From a virus: a stretch of 64,000 nucleotides of DNA. The DNA is taken from positions 248,001 through 312,000 of the IMG/VR virus record IMGVR_UViG_3300044796_000662. The stretch is one strand, 5' to 3'. The translations under genes and the position numbers were made by a program. Shown here piece after piece: positions 422 through 49,136 of the stretch (the first letter of the stretch is position 1; each line of letters opens with the position of its first letter). The notes under the pieces are model-generated. The model did no database searches. It had not been told where the DNA came from and saw only the letters and a program-made list of their open reading frames with translations.

Positions 422-1666
422 TCAGGCCAGCTTCCTCTCCTCGTGGCTGTGCCCGATCTTGACGGGCTGTGCGCACGAAGGACAGAAAGGCAGGGACTTG
501 ATCTCTCCTACCAGTACCTTCTCGTCAGCGAGAGTCTTGTCGTAGTTGTTCTCCAGGTTCGAGATGGTCTCTTCGAGCGAGGCCATTCTCGACGCGAACG
601 ACGAGAGCTGGAGGAGTCGATCCCTGGCCACCTTGAGGCCCGTGGGGTCCGGCGTCGTGACGTTCTCGACCCCCTTGAACTTGACCCACTGATCCTGCAA
701 GCTCTGGAGCTTGTTCGTCCAGGTCGAGAGCTTCTCGAACTTGTCCGCGGCAGCGACGACAGGAGCGGCGATCGGCGTCGGGATGGTCTCGACACCCATG
801 AGCGACTTCACAGCCGTCGCGCGATCGATCACATCGGACTGGTAGCGGGAGAGCTTCTCGAACTCACTGCGCTTGGCCAGCACTGCGTCGATGGTGGGGA
901 CTGGCGTTTCGACAGCCTTCTTCAGGGTATCGACGCGGAAGCCGATCGCTCGCAGTTCCTCGATGTAGGAGTCGAGAGACTCGACTGCCTCCTGAACGAC
1001 GGTGATCTGCCCGAGCTTCTTCTCGACCGCGACGACTCCCGCCACGGCCTCGTCGAGGCCCTCGTACTCGTTGATCTGATGCGTTAGCTCGGTCATGTCC
1101 TTCTCCCGGACCTTCCTTGTGGAGACGGCCTCTTTGCGGTCCTTCTCGACGAACCTCATCGCGACGTTGATGCGGTCAAGATGGGCAACGTCGGAGAACA
1201 CGTCAGCGACAACTCCGCCCGACTGGTCGAGCAAGAAGATGTTGTCGAACTGGTCAGCGATCTGGAGCAGCTTGGCGTTGGGCCCGATCTGCACCATCCC
1301 GAAGTCCTTGGCGAGCTTGGGCCTCTCCAAGAAGTCCGGGGTCCCTCTGTTGGGGACCCCGTAGTCCTGACCGTTGAACGTGTAGCTGTTGCGCTTGTCC
1401 CCCTTCTCCCACTTGAGGTCGAAGCCCTCCGTGCGGAGGTGCACCGAGCAGTAGCATTCGCAGGTCTTGGACCCGCGCAGACGCCTATGACAGGCGACAC
1501 CATGACGGACGAACGAGGTCCCAGTCGCGCCCGTGAGGGCCGCGCGAACGGCCCTCACGATGGCGCTCTTGCCGATGTCGGACTTCCCGACGAGGGCGGT
1601 GAACCCGTCGATGTTGATCGAGACGTGCTCGATCGATTGGAAGTTCCGGACCTCTACGTCGATCAT
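422..1666 (-). CDS. SbcC/RecF-like ATPase with short coiled coil
   Basis: A 414-residue AAA/SMC-type ATPase. The N-terminus MIDVEVRNFQSIEHV is the typical SbcC/RecF start, followed by Walker A GKSDIGKSAIVRAV at about residues 27-40. Residues 170-390 are charged and heptad-like, consistent with a coiled coil. The chain ends shortly after CPSC (about residue 398), which resembles a Rad50/SbcC zinc hook. Full SbcC has a second coiled-coil arm and a Walker B lobe after the hook; those are absent. Short proteins of this shape occur in phages, so it may be a family form rather than a truncation. It sits directly upstream of the SbcD-like nuclease and downstream of RecA, in a recombination operon. 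The partner assignment rests on gene order. Confidence 0.8.
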   Translation of the reverse strand: MIDVEVRNFQSIEHVSINIDGFTALVGKSDIGKSAIVRAVRAALTGATGTSFVRHGVACHRRLRGSKTCECYCSVHLRTEGFDLKWEKGDKRNSYTFNGQDYGVPNRGTPDFLERPKLAKDFGMVQIGPNAKLLQIADQFDNIFLLDQSGGVVADVFSDVAHLDRINVAMRFVEKDRKEAVSTRKVREKDMTELTHQINEYEGLDEAVAGVVAVEKKLGQITVVQEAVESLDSYIEELRAIGFRVDTLKKAVETPVPTIDAVLAKRSEFEKLSRYQSDVIDRATAVKSLMGVETIPTPIAAPVVAAADKFEKLSTWTNKLQSLQDQWVKFKGVENVTTPDPTGLKVARDRLLQLSSFASRMASLEETISNLENNYDKTLADEKVLVGEIKSLPFCPSCAQPVKIGHSHEERKLA

Positions 1667-15978: not shown

Positions 15979-17655
<1,677 letters not shown>

Positions 17656-18397: not shown

Positions 18398-19051
18398 CTA
18401 CTTAAGCCTCGACCCATTCGGTACGGGACTGGTGACCCGCACAAGCTTGAGGCTATCAGGTTCACCGGTTGCGAGGATCATCCCGTGGGAGGTCAACCCC
18501 TTGCCGAAGTCTCGCGGCGCCAGGTTCGCGACCACCACAACTTGCAGCCCAACGAGCATCTCCGGTGGTTGGAACGTCAGCGCGAGCCCGGCCACAATCG
18601 TTCGTGGTGTCGGCTCCCCGAGGTCCACGGTGAGCTTGAGTAGCTTGTCCTTCTTGGGGATGCGATCGGCCGCTGTGATGGTCCCCGCAACCAGCTCCAC
18701 CTTCTGGAAGGTATCGTAGTCGAGGTACGTCGGCTCCGGCTTGGTCTCCGGAACGGCCTTGGGGTCTTCGGCGGGCATGTTCATCCAATCCTCCACGAGC
18801 GTCTTGTGCTTCTCGTACACCTCGTCCGAGATGACAGTGATCCAGGTCCCCTGGTCGAAAGACCACGGAGCGTGACGGACAGTGACCCCGACACCTTGGA
18901 GCTGTTCGATAACCTTCGTGACCTGGCGGAAGGTCCCGATCACCAGGAACCCGGGCCGATCCGTGCAGCGCTCGATGACGAGCTTCACGAGCCGACCCTC
19001 AAGCACCTGCTTCTGCTCCGCTGACGGGGGCACCGGAATGAGCCGCACCAT
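18398..19051 (-). CDS. tRNA-binding OB-fold (EMAP-II/MetRS C-terminal-like) protein
   Basis: 217 residues. The C-terminal half matches the tRNA-binding domain found at the end of bacterial MetRS, in CsaA and in Arc1p/EMAP-II: VELVAGTITAADRIPKKDKLL, LKLTVDLGE, RTIVAGLALTF, MLVGLQVVVVANLAPRDF and SHGMILAT appear in family order. The N-terminal 110 residues are a separate alpha/beta domain I do not recognise. No aminoacyl-tRNA synthetase core is present. The ATG overlaps the rtcB stop (ATGA), so it should be made with RtcB in fixed ratio. With some 70 tRNA genes around, a role in capturing or handing over tRNA or tRNA fragments is likely. Confidence 0.8.
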   Translation of the reverse strand: MVRLIPVPPSAEQKQVLEGRLVKLVIERCTDRPGFLVIGTFRQVTKVIEQLQGVGVTVRHAPWSFDQGTWITVISDEVYEKHKTLVEDWMNMPAEDPKAVPETKPEPTYLDYDTFQKVELVAGTITAADRIPKKDKLLKLTVDLGEPTPRTIVAGLALTFQPPEMLVGLQVVVVANLAPRDFGKGLTSHGMILATGEPDSLKLVRVTSPVPNGSRLK

Positions 19052-20454
19052 CAATCCGTGCCCTTCAAGTTCGCGATCGGGTAGAGGCGGTTCGCCACCC
19101 GTGCGATCTGCTCCTCTTCGAGGACAGCAAGCACGGTGTCGAGGTCCTTGTACACGTGAGCGCACTCGTCGAGCGGCACGTGCTTGTGGTTGCCCACGAT
19201 GCCCTCGATCTGCACACCGTTGAAGGTGCGCACGACATTGGCCATCTCCTCGTCGATGCGGAGCTGCTTGTGCTCCAGCTTCCGCTTCGCCTCCCCGCGA
19301 GCGAGGATGCGCCCCGACCCGTGGTTGACCGAGCAGGCCGTCTTGTACGCGCCCTGGAGCGGGAACAAGATGGCCGCACCCTCGTACATCGAGCCCGGGA
19401 TGAGACACGGGTGCCCCGTGGTCTCCCACTGCGTACCGACGAGATCCGGGTGACCGGCCGGGAAGGCGCGCGTTGCGCCCTTACGGTGGACGAAGCCCCT
19501 CTTCTGCGTGCCGTCCGGCAGGACGATCGTCTCCTCCTGAACCAGGTTGTGGCTGATCTCGTAGTAGACGTTCACGTCCGAGTTGAAGACCTCTTGGGTC
19601 GCCTCCCGGACGCCGTTGACGATGATGTGGCGGTTCGCCACGGCGAAGTTCGCCGCCGAGTTGTGGTAGGCCCAGTATTCCTTGCCGAGCGGCTCGTCAG
19701 CACGCAACCACGAGTCTTCACGGCGGTTCTTCGGCAGACCGCGGAGCTTCGCCCCCTCGTAGAAGAAGTAGTTGGCGAGCTGCCAGCCGTACCCACGGCT
19801 ACCGCAGTGGACCATGATGTAGACCTCGCCCGAGTCGCGGTCGCACTGCATCTCGATGAAGTGATTGCCGCCCCCGACGCTTCCGAGCTGCGGTCCGACC
19901 TTGTCGTAGGCCGCCGAGATCTTCTTCAGCTCCAGGTCGCGCGGAACCGGGATGTACTGGCGCTCACAGAGAGCCTCATCGACCCCGAGAGCCTTCGCGC
20001 CGAAGCGCAGGATCTCCTCGGTCTTGTCGGTCGGGAAGCGCTTCATGAACTTCGGGCGCTCACCACGGATGCCCGTTTGGATGCGCTTCTCGATCTCCGT
20101 GACCCACCGCTCACGGTTGTACTTGCTCTTGACCGAGCCAGCCGTGAGGTTCGCCTTCATGTAGATGACGCCACACGAGATGTCGTAACCGGAGCCGCCC
20201 TGGATGATGGTCCCGTCCGTGACGATGACCGAGCCCACCGGGACACCGTAGCCCGTGTGCGTGTCCGGCATGAGATACGCCCCCGTCACGCCCTCGAAGC
20301 TCGCGCCATGAGAGATCTGTTGCCAGACGTTCTCCTCGGACGCCTCGAAGAGAGACTCGGACAGGAAGGCGTGAGCCTCCACCTTCATCTCGCCTACCTT
20401 CGGCAGGACGTAGTGGTTGTCGGAGACCTTGGTGACGGCGTACTTGAGGGACAT
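19051..20454 (-). CDS. rtcB: RNA-splicing ligase RtcB
   Basis: 467-residue GTP-dependent ligase that joins 2',3'-cyclic phosphate (or 3'-phosphate) ends to 5'-OH ends. Signatures: MPDTHTGYGVPVG, GYDISCGV (metal Cys), GSVGGGNHFIEMQ, MVHCGSRGYGW, and SVNHGSGR with the guanylylated His. Length is normal for the family. Its known jobs are tRNA exon ligation and repair of nuclease-cut tRNA or rRNA. Here it is coupled to a tRNA-binding OB-fold protein and lies in a genome with apparently permuted and intron-bearing tRNA genes, so both splicing and repair are plausible. No archease gene was seen next to it. Confidence 0.93.
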   Translation of the reverse strand: MSLKYAVTKVSDNHYVLPKVGEMKVEAHAFLSESLFEASEENVWQQISHGASFEGVTGAYLMPDTHTGYGVPVGSVIVTDGTIIQGGSGYDISCGVIYMKANLTAGSVKSKYNRERWVTEIEKRIQTGIRGERPKFMKRFPTDKTEEILRFGAKALGVDEALCERQYIPVPRDLELKKISAAYDKVGPQLGSVGGGNHFIEMQCDRDSGEVYIMVHCGSRGYGWQLANYFFYEGAKLRGLPKNRREDSWLRADEPLGKEYWAYHNSAANFAVANRHIIVNGVREATQEVFNSDVNVYYEISHNLVQEETIVLPDGTQKRGFVHRKGATRAFPAGHPDLVGTQWETTGHPCLIPGSMYEGAAILFPLQGAYKTACSVNHGSGRILARGEAKRKLEHKQLRIDEEMANVVRTFNGVQIEGIVGNHKHVPLDECAHVYKDLDTVLAVLEEEQIARVANRLYPIANLKGTD

Positions 20455-25494: not shown

Positions 25495-25517
25495 TCATCC
25501 TCATCTGGGTTGTAGTG

Positions 25518-25900
25518 GAGCTGGGCGGAATCGAACCGCCGTCTCCAAGAACGTCCTGACCGTCGTTTACGATGCGTAGCCTGATCCTCAGGCGGGATCC
25601 CCTCTGAACCTCGGGGCGGGTTTGCAAGCCATCGCTCTTGCGAGCTGGGAGACGTGCGGCCCTAGACCCTCAGAATGCTCGCTCCCTCATTGGGTCAAAG
25701 GCGGGGAGCCCAGCCTCAAGGGGTTGACGATTCTAGTGATCAGGTTGAGGCGCCCTGATCGAATCGGCTCAGGCCGCGCGGGCCTGGGCGACGCCGTTGT
25801 CGTTGGCAGGTATTTCGCCTCGATTTATTTGAGCGGGTCGAGGAGCCCGCTTACACGTAGACGATCGTTCGGTTCCCGGATCGAAACCAGGGCAGCCCCT
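25518..25900 (-). ncRNA. ssrA: Transfer-messenger RNA (tmRNA)
   Basis: 383 nt. The ends form the tmRNA acceptor: GGGGCTG pairs with CAGCTCC and includes the G3-U70 wobble needed for alanylation; the T-arm is GGCGGTTCGATTCCGCC. The 5' segment holds the degenerate D-loop (TTTCGATCCGGGA). The tag frame reads EIPANDNGVAQARAA and then TGA, with the typical ANDN core but ending RAA instead of the usual LAA. Pseudoknot-forming segments follow. The discriminator is A, but CTA rather than CCA comes next, so the tail must be added. A GGTGTAAG box is 15 bases upstream. Function: rescue of stalled ribosomes, possibly with altered tag fate. Confidence 0.93.
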
Positions 25901-29265: not shown

Positions 29266-29337
29266 TGGTACGGGAGGAGGGAGTCGAACCCACTCATCCG
29301 GCTTGTAGGGCCAGTGCCTCGCCTTGAGGTCCCCCGC
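29266..29337 (-). tRNA. tRNA-Val(TAC)
   Basis: GCGGGGG/CTCCCGT acceptor with wobbles, stem CTGGC/GCCGG, loop CCTACAA (C instead of U at position 33), A73 and encoded CCA. D-loop short. Confidence 0.7.
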
Positions 29338-40005: not shown

Positions 40006-40011
40006 GAGTTA

Positions 40012-40375
40012 GTGAAGTGAGCGTATAAGCCGAGTTCTGTTCCCCGTTACCGGGTGATGATCATTCCTCTAGGCCCACCGTTGCCGATGGGCTCAAGCAG
40101 TCAACCCGGGGGTATCGGCCGGACGCGCCACCCCCTGCATGACCTTGCTCCCGGTGAGGTTTGCCTTGCGACCGATGTTACCACCGGCCCGGTGGGCTCT
40201 TACTCCACCCTTGCACCCTTACCTGATCCCCTTGCGGGGCCATCGGCGGTCTTCTCTCTGTTGCACTTTCTGTCGGGTCACCCCGCCCGGCCGTTAGCCG
40301 GCACCGTGTCCAGTGGAGCCCGGACTTTCCTCCCGCTGTCGTACTGACCAGCCGGCGACCATCTCACTCACTTCG
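40012..40375 (-). ncRNA. rnpB: RNase P RNA (class A)
   Basis: About 363 nt. The ends pair as helix P1 (GAAGTGAG with CTCACTTC). Conserved blocks occur in order on the minus strand: GAGGAAAGTCCGGGCTCC (CR I), ACAGAAA, GGGTGGAGTAAGAGCCCACC (CR II/III area), GGCAAACC, GGTTGACTGCTTGAG (L15-type), TAGAGGAATGATCATC (CR IV/V) and ACAGAACTCGGCTTAT at the 3' end. The gene begins directly after tRNA-Trp, so tRNA 3' processing could release its 5' end. It is the catalytic RNA for tRNA 5' maturation and would need the host protein subunit or one encoded elsewhere. Confidence 0.95.
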
Positions 40376-42851: not shown

Positions 42852-42982
42852 TGCCGCTCCCAGGAATCGAACCTGGAACTTGTATGCACGCCGGATGGTC
42901 CCCTCTCACAGGGACGAGATGGCAGGCAGGTTGCTTTTTGTTCGCGTTAAAGGTGCGAGTGGACAACCTTGTCCAGAGCGGC
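42852..42982 (-). tRNA. tRNA-Lys(TTT)-like with ~65-nt insertion
   Basis: 131 nt. GCCGCTC/GAGCGGC acceptor, D-stem GGACA/TGTCC, stem TCGCA/CGCGA with loop CCTTTAA, T-arm CCAGG/CCTGG, A73. Between anticodon stem and T-arm lies a large insert that folds as outer stem (TGCCTGCC with GGCGTGCA), a CTC-ending internal loop and inner stem GTCCC/GGGAC, and ends in ATACAAG. The loop here is not GNRA. Confidence 0.7.
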
Positions 42983-43020
42983 AGAAACTAGACCACATCC
43001 GAGGTGACGGAGCTGGGGGT

Positions 43021-43048
43021 GACCGACGCCCACTCCGGGGCGTCGGTC
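43021..43048. repeat. 11-bp hairpin
   Basis: GACCGACGCCC and GGGCGTCGGTC around a six-base loop. Follows the Gly(TCC) extended tRNA in transcription order; could be a terminator without a T-run. Confidence 0.5.
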
Positions 43049-43093
43049 TGTCCTTTCCAGGGCTTGTGAGATCCGTCGAGAGGATGCGGTCGG

Positions 43094-43230
43094 AGCCGGG
43101 TCTCGGAGTCGAACCGAGAATGCTTGTGCGGACTGCGGGGAGCTTCCTTGCGGAAGCGAGGGGCAGACCTGGGTTGAGCTTGCGCTCCTCCGTGGAAGGG
43201 AGGTGACGGACCGACCGTCTGTAACCCGGC
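43094..43230 (-). tRNA. tRNA-Gly(TCC) with 68-nt insertion
   Basis: 137 nt. GCCGGGT/ACCCGGC acceptor, D-stem GACGG/CCGTC, perfect stem CCTCC/GGAGG with loop CTTCCAC, T-arm CTCGG/CCGAG, discriminator U as in Gly. The insert after the anticodon stem forms a small AGC-GCAA-GCT hairpin, then GGTCTGC/GCAGTCC outer stem, CCCTC and TCCCC internal loops, and GCTTCC-GCAA-GGAAGC inner hairpin, and ends GCACAAG. Confidence 0.8.
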
Positions 43231-43279
43231 ATGTGACAGTGAAGTTAGGAAGCGTCCGAGGTGTAGTGCGGGGTTTTGG

Positions 43280-43351
43280 CGCAATAGGCGGGAGTTGAAC
43301 CCGCAACTGTCAGCTTCGAAGGCTGATGCTCAACCATTGAGCATCTCTTGC
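43280..43351 (-). tRNA. tRNA-Arg(TCG), second gene
   Basis: GCAAGAG/CTATTGC acceptor with one G-A mismatch, loop CTTCGAA on TCAGC/GCTGA, T-loop TTCAACT, discriminator G. Normal length within the extended-tRNA array. Confidence 0.8.
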
Positions 43352-43381
43352 ATGTGCGCGCTACGGGTTGGACGTTTCCAG

Positions 43382-43490
43382 AGGGGCTTGCCGGAATCGA
43401 ACCGGCGAAGATCTTGTAGGCACTCAAGATGCCTCCTTGCGGAGGCGAGTGCGAGAGCCGTTCAGTTTGGGCGCCATGCCCAAAAGCCCC
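43382..43490 (-). tRNA. tRNA-like with insertion, anticodon unresolved
   Basis: 109 nt. GGGGCTT/AAGCCCC acceptor, D-stem GGGC/GCCC, T-arm GCCGG/CCGGC, discriminator U. Middle folds as GCACTC/GAGTGC outer stem and GCCTCC-GCAA-GGAGGC inner hairpin, then CTACAAG. No clear anticodon stem; an alternative fold AGGCA/TGCCT exposes loop TCTTGAG. Confidence 0.6.
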
Positions 43491-43519
43491 AGAGGACAGT
43501 GACAGAAGATAAGTAGCAG

Positions 43520-43644
43520 AGACGGGTGAAGGAGTCGAACCTTCCAAGCTTGTAGACGCACGTGGCGGCTCCCTTGCGGGAGCGAGAGTGAGCGTCGGAT
43601 GTATCTCTTATGAGGAGAAGCGGGACCCACGTCCCTTACCCGTC
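43520..43644 (-). tRNA. tRNA-Met(CAT) with 59-nt insertion
   Basis: 125 nt. GACGGGT/ACCCGTC acceptor, D-stem GGGAC/GTCCC, stem TCTC/GAGA with loop CTCATAA, T-arm GAAGG/CCTTC, U73. Insert: GACGC/GCGTC outer stem, TCACTCTC internal loop, GCTCCC-GCAA-GGGAGC inner hairpin, then TACAAG. Confidence 0.78.
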
Positions 43645-43655
43645 ATGATTTCCCC

Positions 43656-43790
43656 CGCGTTCGAGTGACTGAGGCTTGTGCGTTGTGATCGTCCTTCAAA
43701 CGATTGCCTTACCATTTGGCTACGGTTCCCGAAGGAATCGACGGGATTCGAACCCGCATTGCTTGTGAGCCTCAACCTGATGAGCGCGAG
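43656..43790 (-). tRNA. Candidate circularly permuted tRNA-Phe(GAA)
   Basis: The order on the minus strand is inverted relative to a normal tRNA: TCACAAG, T-arm GCGGG/CCCGT, 3' acceptor CGATTCC, linker TTCG, 5' acceptor GGAACCG, D-arm (GCC/GGC), and anticodon arm ATCGT/ACGAT with loop TTGAAGG. Acceptor halves pair 6 of 7. The outer flanks pair as GCCTCA/TGAGGC and GAACGCG/CGCGCTC (one mismatch), so the insertion fold seen in neighbouring tRNAs is rebuilt with its tip opened. Confidence 0.6.
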
Positions 43791-43794
43791 GTAG

Positions 43795-43923
43795 GGGGCA
43801 TTCCAGGAATCGAACCTGGGCTTGTAAGAACCGCGGGGGCTCCCTTTCGGGAGCGAGTTGCGGTGCTGATTCACGTGACCTGTTTTTCAGACAGATTGAG
43901 GAACCAACCTCGGTGAATGCCCC
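43795..43923 (-). tRNA. tRNA-Phe(GAA) with 59-nt insertion
   Basis: 129 nt. GGGCATT/AATGCCC acceptor with an extra G(-1)-C73 pair, D-stem GAGG/CCTC, stem TCTGT/ACAGG with loop CTGAAAA, T-arm CCAGG/CCTGG. Insert: ACCGC/GCGGT outer stem, AACTC loop, GCTCCC-GAAA-GGGAGC inner hairpin, CTTACAAG end. Confidence 0.78.
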
Positions 43924-48960: not shown

Positions 48961-49136
48961 TGTCGCGCCCGAGTGGAAGGAGCCGGATGCCTTTCGGCTG
49001 GATTCCATTTCCAGTGCGTCTACCATTTCGCCACTCGCCCAGGTTGTAGAGCCTTGCGGCTCAGTGGGCGAGGCAGGATTCGAACCTGCATATCCCTTGC
49101 GGGATGCTTGTGGGATCCCTCGATGAGGGCGCGACA
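48961..49136 (-). tRNA. Candidate circularly permuted tRNA-Leu
   Basis: Minus-strand order: stem TGTCGCGCCC, loop TCATCGA, GGGATCC, CACAAG, variable arm ATCCC-GCAA-GGGAT, T-arm GCAGG/CCTGC, 3' acceptor CTCGCCC plus A73, 24-nt linker (GAGCC-GCAA-GGCTC hairpin), 5' acceptor GGGCGAG, Leu-type D-arm, stem CTGGA/TCCAG, and tail CACTC then GGGCGCGACA. Acceptor halves pair 7 of 7 and the unit ends pair 10 of 10. The anticodon loop AATGGAA lacks U33, so identity rests on the D-arm and variable arm. Confidence 0.65.

Follow-up and report, generated by a model that had tools for sequence, protein, structure and literature searches.

A candidate RNA splicing or circularisation element that interrupts and permutes tRNA genes in large phages

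Introduction

Introns of archaeal and eukaryotic tRNA genes with a bulge-helix-bulge (BHB) motif are spliced by EndA/Sen, with RtcB as the joining enzyme in archaea, and in the motif a bulge follows each strand of the central helix, where the enzyme cuts. The BHB has been defined by a central helix of 4 bp and bulges of 3 nt (PMC3978253, PMC6379350). Permuted tRNA genes have been described in algae and in Thermofilum pendens (PMC3978253; PMC3218864), and a count of 34 such genes draws on six algae and a single archaeon, with no case from bacteria or phages (PMC3978253). Phage-encoded tRNAs are known to counter the tRNA-depleting defences retron-Eco7 and PrrC (PMC11555353), and a defence that cuts the CCA tails of tRNAs also exists (PMC12851939).

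Here we describe tRNA genes with a shared insert in a stretch of 64,000 nucleotides, hereafter the window, which covers positions 248001-312000 of a virus record 362,937 bp long. The window contains about 50 ordinary tRNA genes. A class A RNase P RNA (40010-40374, minus strand, 299.5 bits) and a tmRNA (25513-25899, minus strand) with the tag ANDNGVAQARAA are also present, and together with the ordinary tRNAs they make up a nearly complete tRNA-processing kit of the phage. An open reading frame with a Cpn60/TCP-1 chaperonin domain lies at 15979-17628 (minus strand, 236.8 bits).

Results and Discussion

Interrupted tRNA genes in the window

Between 42852 and 43923, on the minus strand, lie five tRNA-like genes with an insert, and none of them was called by ARAGORN; all five tRNAs that the first-pass annotation had credited with a shared insert were thus found. 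A tRNA-Lys-like gene with anticodon UUU and C33 (42852-42983) is recognised by ARAGORN as tRNA-Lys only once the element is deleted, and its linear element (42879-42928) reads P2-NNCUC-P3-tip-P3'-loop-P2'-U-ACAAG. The tRNA-Gly(UCC) gene (43095-43230) is interrupted by an element at 43123-43170, the tRNA-Met(CAU) gene (43521-43644) by one at 43549-43596, the tRNA-Phe(GAA) gene (43795-43923) by one at 43821-43867, and a gene at 43383-43490, here called class X, by one at 43413-43459. With a covariance model, R1, built on 11 gapless copies, the Gly and Met elements, both members of the model, scored 68.9 bits (E 1.4e-16) and 62.9 bits, while the Phe and class X elements, both outside the model, scored 53.2 bits (E 3.3e-12) and 47.8 bits (E 1.1e-10); the Lys element scored 27.2 bits. 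The insert had been put at about 45-70 nt, and the element proper, from P2 to ACAAG, measures 47-50 nt. The GNRA tip reported for four of the five is present as GAAA once and GCAA three times, the Lys tip being of another kind. The ACAAG motif occurs eight times near a T-loop in the window, against 0.3 expected. For an interrupted tRNA, the phage often has an ordinary tRNA of the same isotype as well (in the window for Phe, Gly-UCC, Lys and Met).

The class X gene has acceptor, D and T arms, and its anticodon arm is not recognisable even after removal of the element, a point against splicing; the earlier placement of the insert after the anticodon stem in all five genes therefore does not apply here. 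This form recurs at L004 (6495) and at L002 (3531)/L005, and such a gene is possibly completed in trans, or serves as a mimic.

In the tRNA-Gly(UCC) gene a mini-hairpin, AGC-GCAA-GCU, separates the anticodon stem from P2, and the predicted fold of the unit contains the full cloverleaf, the mini-hairpin and the element (-61.7 kcal/mol, z = -4.3). That all arms and the element can form at once speaks for a retained structural clamp, which would never be spliced and would stand as a giant variable arm in linear tRNAs, with P2/P3 tying the ends of permuted ones together. We consider such a clamp rather unlikely, and the size of the insert matches no known tRNA variable arm.

Deletion of the element and the tRNA context

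Forty-six linear copies of the element were parsed, all in tRNA context and mostly in the variable loop. ARAGORN called 0/46 of these genes as they stand, which also argues against a retained clamp; 32 were called once P2 to ACAA was deleted, and 35 at some length of 5' linker removed. This recovery identifies the flanks as tRNA exons. It cannot place the splice sites, since shortening the variable region by any deletion would have the same effect.

The exons themselves are often unusual. By eye, U33 is absent in about 13 of 38 element tRNAs with seven-nucleotide anticodon loops, against 10/245 ordinary tRNAs of the same loci, an ARAGORN set that could be biased since ARAGORN may favour U33. 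G33 was found in element tRNA-Tyr at L001, L004, L007 and L076. Among the element tRNAs that lack U33, position 33 is G in Tyr and Asn, C in Lys and A in Gln, Met, Val, Arg and Glu, and some anticodon loops have 8 nt; genes without U33 or with an 8-nt loop lie at window 42883, L001 349, L003 6028 and 7146, L004 6675, L006 4645, L007 1286, L053 5785, L054 3653, L069 2038, and L076 4828 and 5114. Non-U33 loops, together with truncated acceptors and units without an anticodon arm, might suggest degenerate or pseudogenic tRNA islands that arose by recombination and carry functionless hairpins. We find this barely credible, as strong compensatory change in P2/P3, seen in about 22 divergent phages along with unpaired motifs that do not vary, is incompatible with neutral decay.

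Architecture and covariation

The element consists, in order, of a C, P2 (8 positions), NNCUC, P3 (beginning with G, 6 bp), a tip, P3', a loop of 4-8 nt that mostly starts with A, P2' (8 positions), Y and ACA(A/C)G, and the T-stem follows after 1-6 nt. Both strands of P2 lead into 5 nt and an invariant G, namely NNCUC|G inside and YACA(A/C)|G outside. CUC followed by G, and likewise ACA(A/C)G, were present in 100% of the 46 linear copies, values that are partly built in, since the CTCG string and ACA(A/C)G were search criteria. The C preceding P2 and the G at P2 position 2 were each found in 98%, and the 5' loop has 5 nt in 40/46. CTC and ACAAG had already been picked out as conserved, correctly so, and the list has to be extended by the P2 length of 8, the C before P2, the G-C at P2 pair 2 and the G after CTC.

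A retained clamp leaves much of this unexplained, as pairing accounts neither for the unpaired invariants CUC|G and ACA(A/C)G nor for the fixed 8-pair P2 and the conserved C before it. The fold is small and rigid, has invariant unpaired nucleotides at two sites and is tolerant of permutation as small ribozymes are. It could also belong to a self-splicing or self-cleaving ribozyme, in which the ~50-nt element would cut at one junction or at both, and perhaps reseal them, whether or not RtcB takes part. We regard a ribozyme as quite unlikely: the element resembles no Rfam ribozyme at E up to 10, one small motif would be needed at two sites, and known self-splicing introns are far larger.

In L009 (record G001), near locus 1340-1480 (minus strand), a permuted tRNA-Phe-like unit has ACATG in place of ACAAG and an acceptor closed by a short loop, and the motif may therefore be looser than searched. 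A separate ACAAG, at 29302-29306 in the window, was rejected as an element because it belongs to an ordinary tRNA-Val-like sequence (29280-29330, minus strand), overlooked by ARAGORN, and falls in its anticodon loop.

Pairing was compared with a control in which strands were swapped between copies. Linear P2 was paired at 87.8% against 64% after swapping and linear P3 at 95.7% against 70%, percentages inflated by a parser that demanded at least 6/8 P2 and at least 5/6 P3 pairs; in permuted units, P2 was paired at 92.6% against 62% and P3 at 92.6% against 64%. Double-change cells, a comparison not inflated to the same degree, numbered 84 against 26 in column shuffles for linear P2 and 69 against 19 for linear P3, and 0/500 shuffles reached the observed covariation values. 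A covariation count on 11 sequences with slid controls had the same outcome. The stems thus vary while pairing is kept, as had been noted from the window; the possibility then raised against the element, that homologues would lack covariation, is contradicted by the P2 and P3 data, and structural selection on the RNA is confirmed by covariation among the copies of about 22 phages, 46 of them linear and 27 permuted.

Permuted units

A pattern search for the order P3'-loop-P2'-N-ACAMG, exon, P2-NNCUC-P3 gave 27 strict permuted units; the permuted-order search with eight control motif pairs of similar make-up gave 0, 0, 0, 0, 0, 0, 1 and 2. The 3' half of the tRNA lies upstream of the 5' half, with a complementary processing motif on the flanks, as in permuted genes. 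The exon is always on the ACAMG side of P2, so that polarity and junction are those of the linear form; C follows the G at the exon start in 27/27 units, and most exons end in C.

Three permuted units, all on the minus strand, lie in the window. The first-pass annotation had reported two with the ACAAG junction, which are present, and had overlooked the third, which lies outside the cluster at 42852-43923. One unit (42991-43091, z = -4.8) has the order P3'-P2'-C-ACAAG-exon-P2-CACCUC-P3 and a non-tRNA exon of 48 nt plus G (43015-43063) that forms a strong hairpin. Another (43653-43791) is a permuted tRNA-Phe(GAA) with half-elements at 43762-43791 and 43653-43676; its exon, counted from the G (43677-43762), runs through T arm, 3' acceptor, UUCG cap, 5' acceptor, D arm and anticodon arm. 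The overlooked unit (48961-49136) encloses a Leu-like tRNA (exon 48985-49107).

By reading the sequences we assigned the exons to three classes. Class (a) comprises tRNAs, mainly Phe(GAA), permuted at the variable loop, the site of the linear insert (window 43653-43791, L003, L006, L007, L054, L063 and others). In class (b) the tRNA is enclosed from the acceptor, with the 5' strand beginning at the G of ACAMG and often with 3-5 acceptor pairs (L004 9693, L058 7213, L007 680, L053 6197, L061, L076 5174). Class (c) consists of small non-tRNA exons of 18-54 nt, such as window 43015-43063 and L053 7102, the latter being a tRNA-Met anticodon arm plus a hairpin. In the short exons at L007 1455, L071 3717 and window 43015-43063, a CUGGAAGG-like stretch recurs next to a strong hairpin, and such exons are perhaps a conserved non-tRNA circular RNA.

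In class (a) the acceptor strands may be closed by loops, UUCG in window 43653-43791, GCAA in L002 and L076 and GAAA in L004, so these tRNAs would not be chargeable unless opened. Other class (a) units carry NCCA and a short linker (L003 7207, L007 986, L063 13275, L071, L054) and could be openable to ordinary tRNA ends.

For permuted units a retained clamp would mean a tRNA-like domain that is nicked or mounted on a stem, comparable to two-piece tmRNA, where a permuted tRNA-like gene works without ligation; this form of the clamp, too, strikes us as rather unlikely. In its favour, P3 spans more pairs in permuted units, where it was scored over 10 bp, than in linear copies with their 6 bp and a loop, as holding the ends together would need.

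Distribution

The element was found in about 22 phages after near-identical records were merged, all of them large-phage records. A first degenerate DNA pattern, composed of CTCG, P3 with GNRA, ACAAG and a T-loop, matched seven IMG/VR contigs of 87-529 kb, and a second pattern without the GNRA requirement added about 20 contigs. The covariance model that the first-pass annotation had suggested recovered the element in these phages. R1 matched the element in tRNA islands of carrier phages, including 8/8 records in one search, which serves as positive reference for its lack of a match in 30 comparator records, a search with no built-in positive control. Across GTDB, a pattern scan covered 84,980 genomes of bacteria and archaea and gave 46 matches, none real by R1 or by eye. 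Array queries of 50,697 phage records returned ordinary tRNA stretches only, among the matches listed. R1 matched nothing in four isolate-phage regions, and no cultured phage carrier was found among these searches. A search via the ThiF neighbour found no related loci, and a tmRNA pattern tried as a baseline gave no match. No intron-less orthologue of the interrupted tRNAs was present among the fetched loci, so there is no empty site to show where the element begins and ends.

Rfam cmscan, at gathering thresholds and at E<=10, returned only tRNA, RNase P, tmRNA and sub-threshold noise and no family that equals the element; the tRNA-Sec model was sub-threshold (32.6 and 20.4 against 47 bits). 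In the open-access literature searched, permuted tRNA genes appear in algae and archaea only and no such phage element is described; an earlier description in subscription papers or preprints is possible.

Candidate enzymes

A candidate joining enzyme, the RNA ligase RtcB (PF01139), is encoded at 19060-20319 on the minus strand (E 8.6e-88 over the record; Pfam 292 bits). An overlapping downstream frame on the same strand (18398-19429) has a C-terminal tRNA_bind domain (PF01588, EMAP/Trbp111-like) and is a possible tRNA-processing partner; the two frames adjoin within 18398-20454 (minus strand).

RtcB was detected in 13/27 element-bearing records (8/8 of the first set and 5/19 of the second), two of the matches being partial, and in about 12/23 carriers after removal of near-duplicates. 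It was found in 1/29 tRNA-Met-bearing viral comparator contigs, with L077, a relative of this phage, left out, and in 532/50,697 phage records. This enrichment, which counts against a retained clamp, is suggestive only, because the comparators are mostly smaller than the carriers, and both genome size and lineage act as confounders. In jumbo phages, RtcB is rarer than ATP-grasp ligases according to a review (PMC7824862). Neither RtcB nor a PF09414 ligase was found in the carriers G014 (372 kb, at least 5 element copies) and G019 (398 kb); the PF09511 (T4 Rnl1) profile carries no weight either way, as its positive control was silent. Large carriers in which no ligase was detected fit a clamp and a ribozyme alike and weigh against the splicing model favoured below. 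EndA/Sen (PF01974) was found in 0/19 carrier records, with the control matched in four archaea, and the absence of an EndA homologue from these 19 carriers is a further point for a ribozyme.

Proposed model and its meaning

Considering the above results, we think that the element is probably a new RNA splicing or circularisation element of large phages. On present sequence evidence its most likely nature is a BHB-like splicing motif, by which linear genes would yield tRNAs and permuted genes circular tRNAs or mimics. Of the readings offered by the first-pass annotation (small intron, ribozyme-like module, processing signal), the intron and processing part is best supported, because the permuted units have the same polarity and junction, tRNAs are recovered in silico and RtcB occurs in about half of the carriers; the ribozyme part gained no support and keeps a low probability.

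P2 and its two flanks share the topology of the BHB, and for this reason we propose a BHB-like working, in which P2 and its flanks would be recognised, the RNA cut close to where the exons end, and the exons joined by RtcB. The RNA would be cut at exon ends close to the base of P2, on the 5' side at or near C|P2 and on the 3' side at or near ACAM|G, either by a nuclease or by the RNA itself, leaving 2',3'-cyclic phosphate and 5'-OH ends. Strictly symmetric BHB-like cuts at CUC|G and ACAM|G were set aside, since the 5' strand of P2 would remain in the product. The ends would be joined by RtcB, which is phage-encoded in about half of the carriers and elsewhere perhaps supplied by the host. A linear gene would thereby shed its insert to give a tRNA, and a permuted gene would give a circle, some circles being opened at the acceptor into normal tRNAs by way of the encoded NCCA and linker. 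Permuted units with tetraloop-capped acceptors, acceptors of 3-5 bp or non-tRNA exons would stay circular mimics.

The products might serve as tRNAs and as decoys resistant to host tRNA-cutting defences. A use as mimic or decoy is suggested by the frequent absence of U33 and by the capped or truncated acceptors of many permuted units; that these variants are directed at host tRNA-cutting defences is speculation. We consider it quite unlikely that the element is an autocatalytic splicing RNA of ~50 nt, of a kind apart from group I, group II and BHB introns, with which phages both interrupt tRNAs and make covalently closed tRNA decoys directed at the tRNA-cutting immunity of the host.

If the element is spliced, it would represent an intron type of bacterial viruses outside groups I and II, add phages to the known bearers of permuted tRNA genes, provide a defined substrate for phage RtcB and bring genome-encoded small circular tRNA mimics into the arms race between phage and bacterium. 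Even if retained, it is a new RNA family that is widespread in large phages, strongly conserved and not in Rfam. For the production of circular RNA, an adapted form of the short permuted units could be a compact tool.

Comparison with known systems

Like group I introns of bacterial tRNAs, the element resides in tRNA genes and can be permuted. Group I introns differ from it in being several-fold larger, in their anticodon-loop positions and in their group I core, for which the ~50-nt element gave no Rfam match (cmscan, gathering or E<=10). Two-piece tmRNA is likewise a permuted tRNA-like RNA with pairing halves; it remains in two pieces, and we know of no two-piece tmRNA with this clamp motif. 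With the anti-defence tRNAs of phages, the element shares tRNA-rich regions and isotypes such as Tyr, Lys, Phe and Met. Those tRNAs are ordinary and contiguous and supply function, whereas the element tRNAs are interrupted or permuted, often lack U33 and in some cases seem unchargeable.

The element resembles the BHB in its central helix, each strand of which is followed on the 3' side by an unpaired region where cutting would take place, in its non-anticodon sites and in the use of one motif for linear and permuted forms; in about half of the carriers, a phage RtcB could act as the ligase. It differs in a P2 of 8 pairs with 5-nt flanks and an invariant G, in the fixed CUCG and ACA(A/C)G, in the lack of an EndA family protein in 19 carriers and in its occurrence in bacterial-type phages. 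We therefore place it outside the BHB family, as it has neither the defining dimensions nor, in the 19 carriers searched, the enzyme. As in the permuted genes known from algae and Thermofilum pendens, the 3' half precedes the 5' half and a pairing processing motif flanks the unit, and in both a circular intermediate, opened at the acceptor, is presumed; unlike those genes, several phage units have a truncated acceptor or one closed by a tetraloop, and some enclose an exon other than a tRNA.
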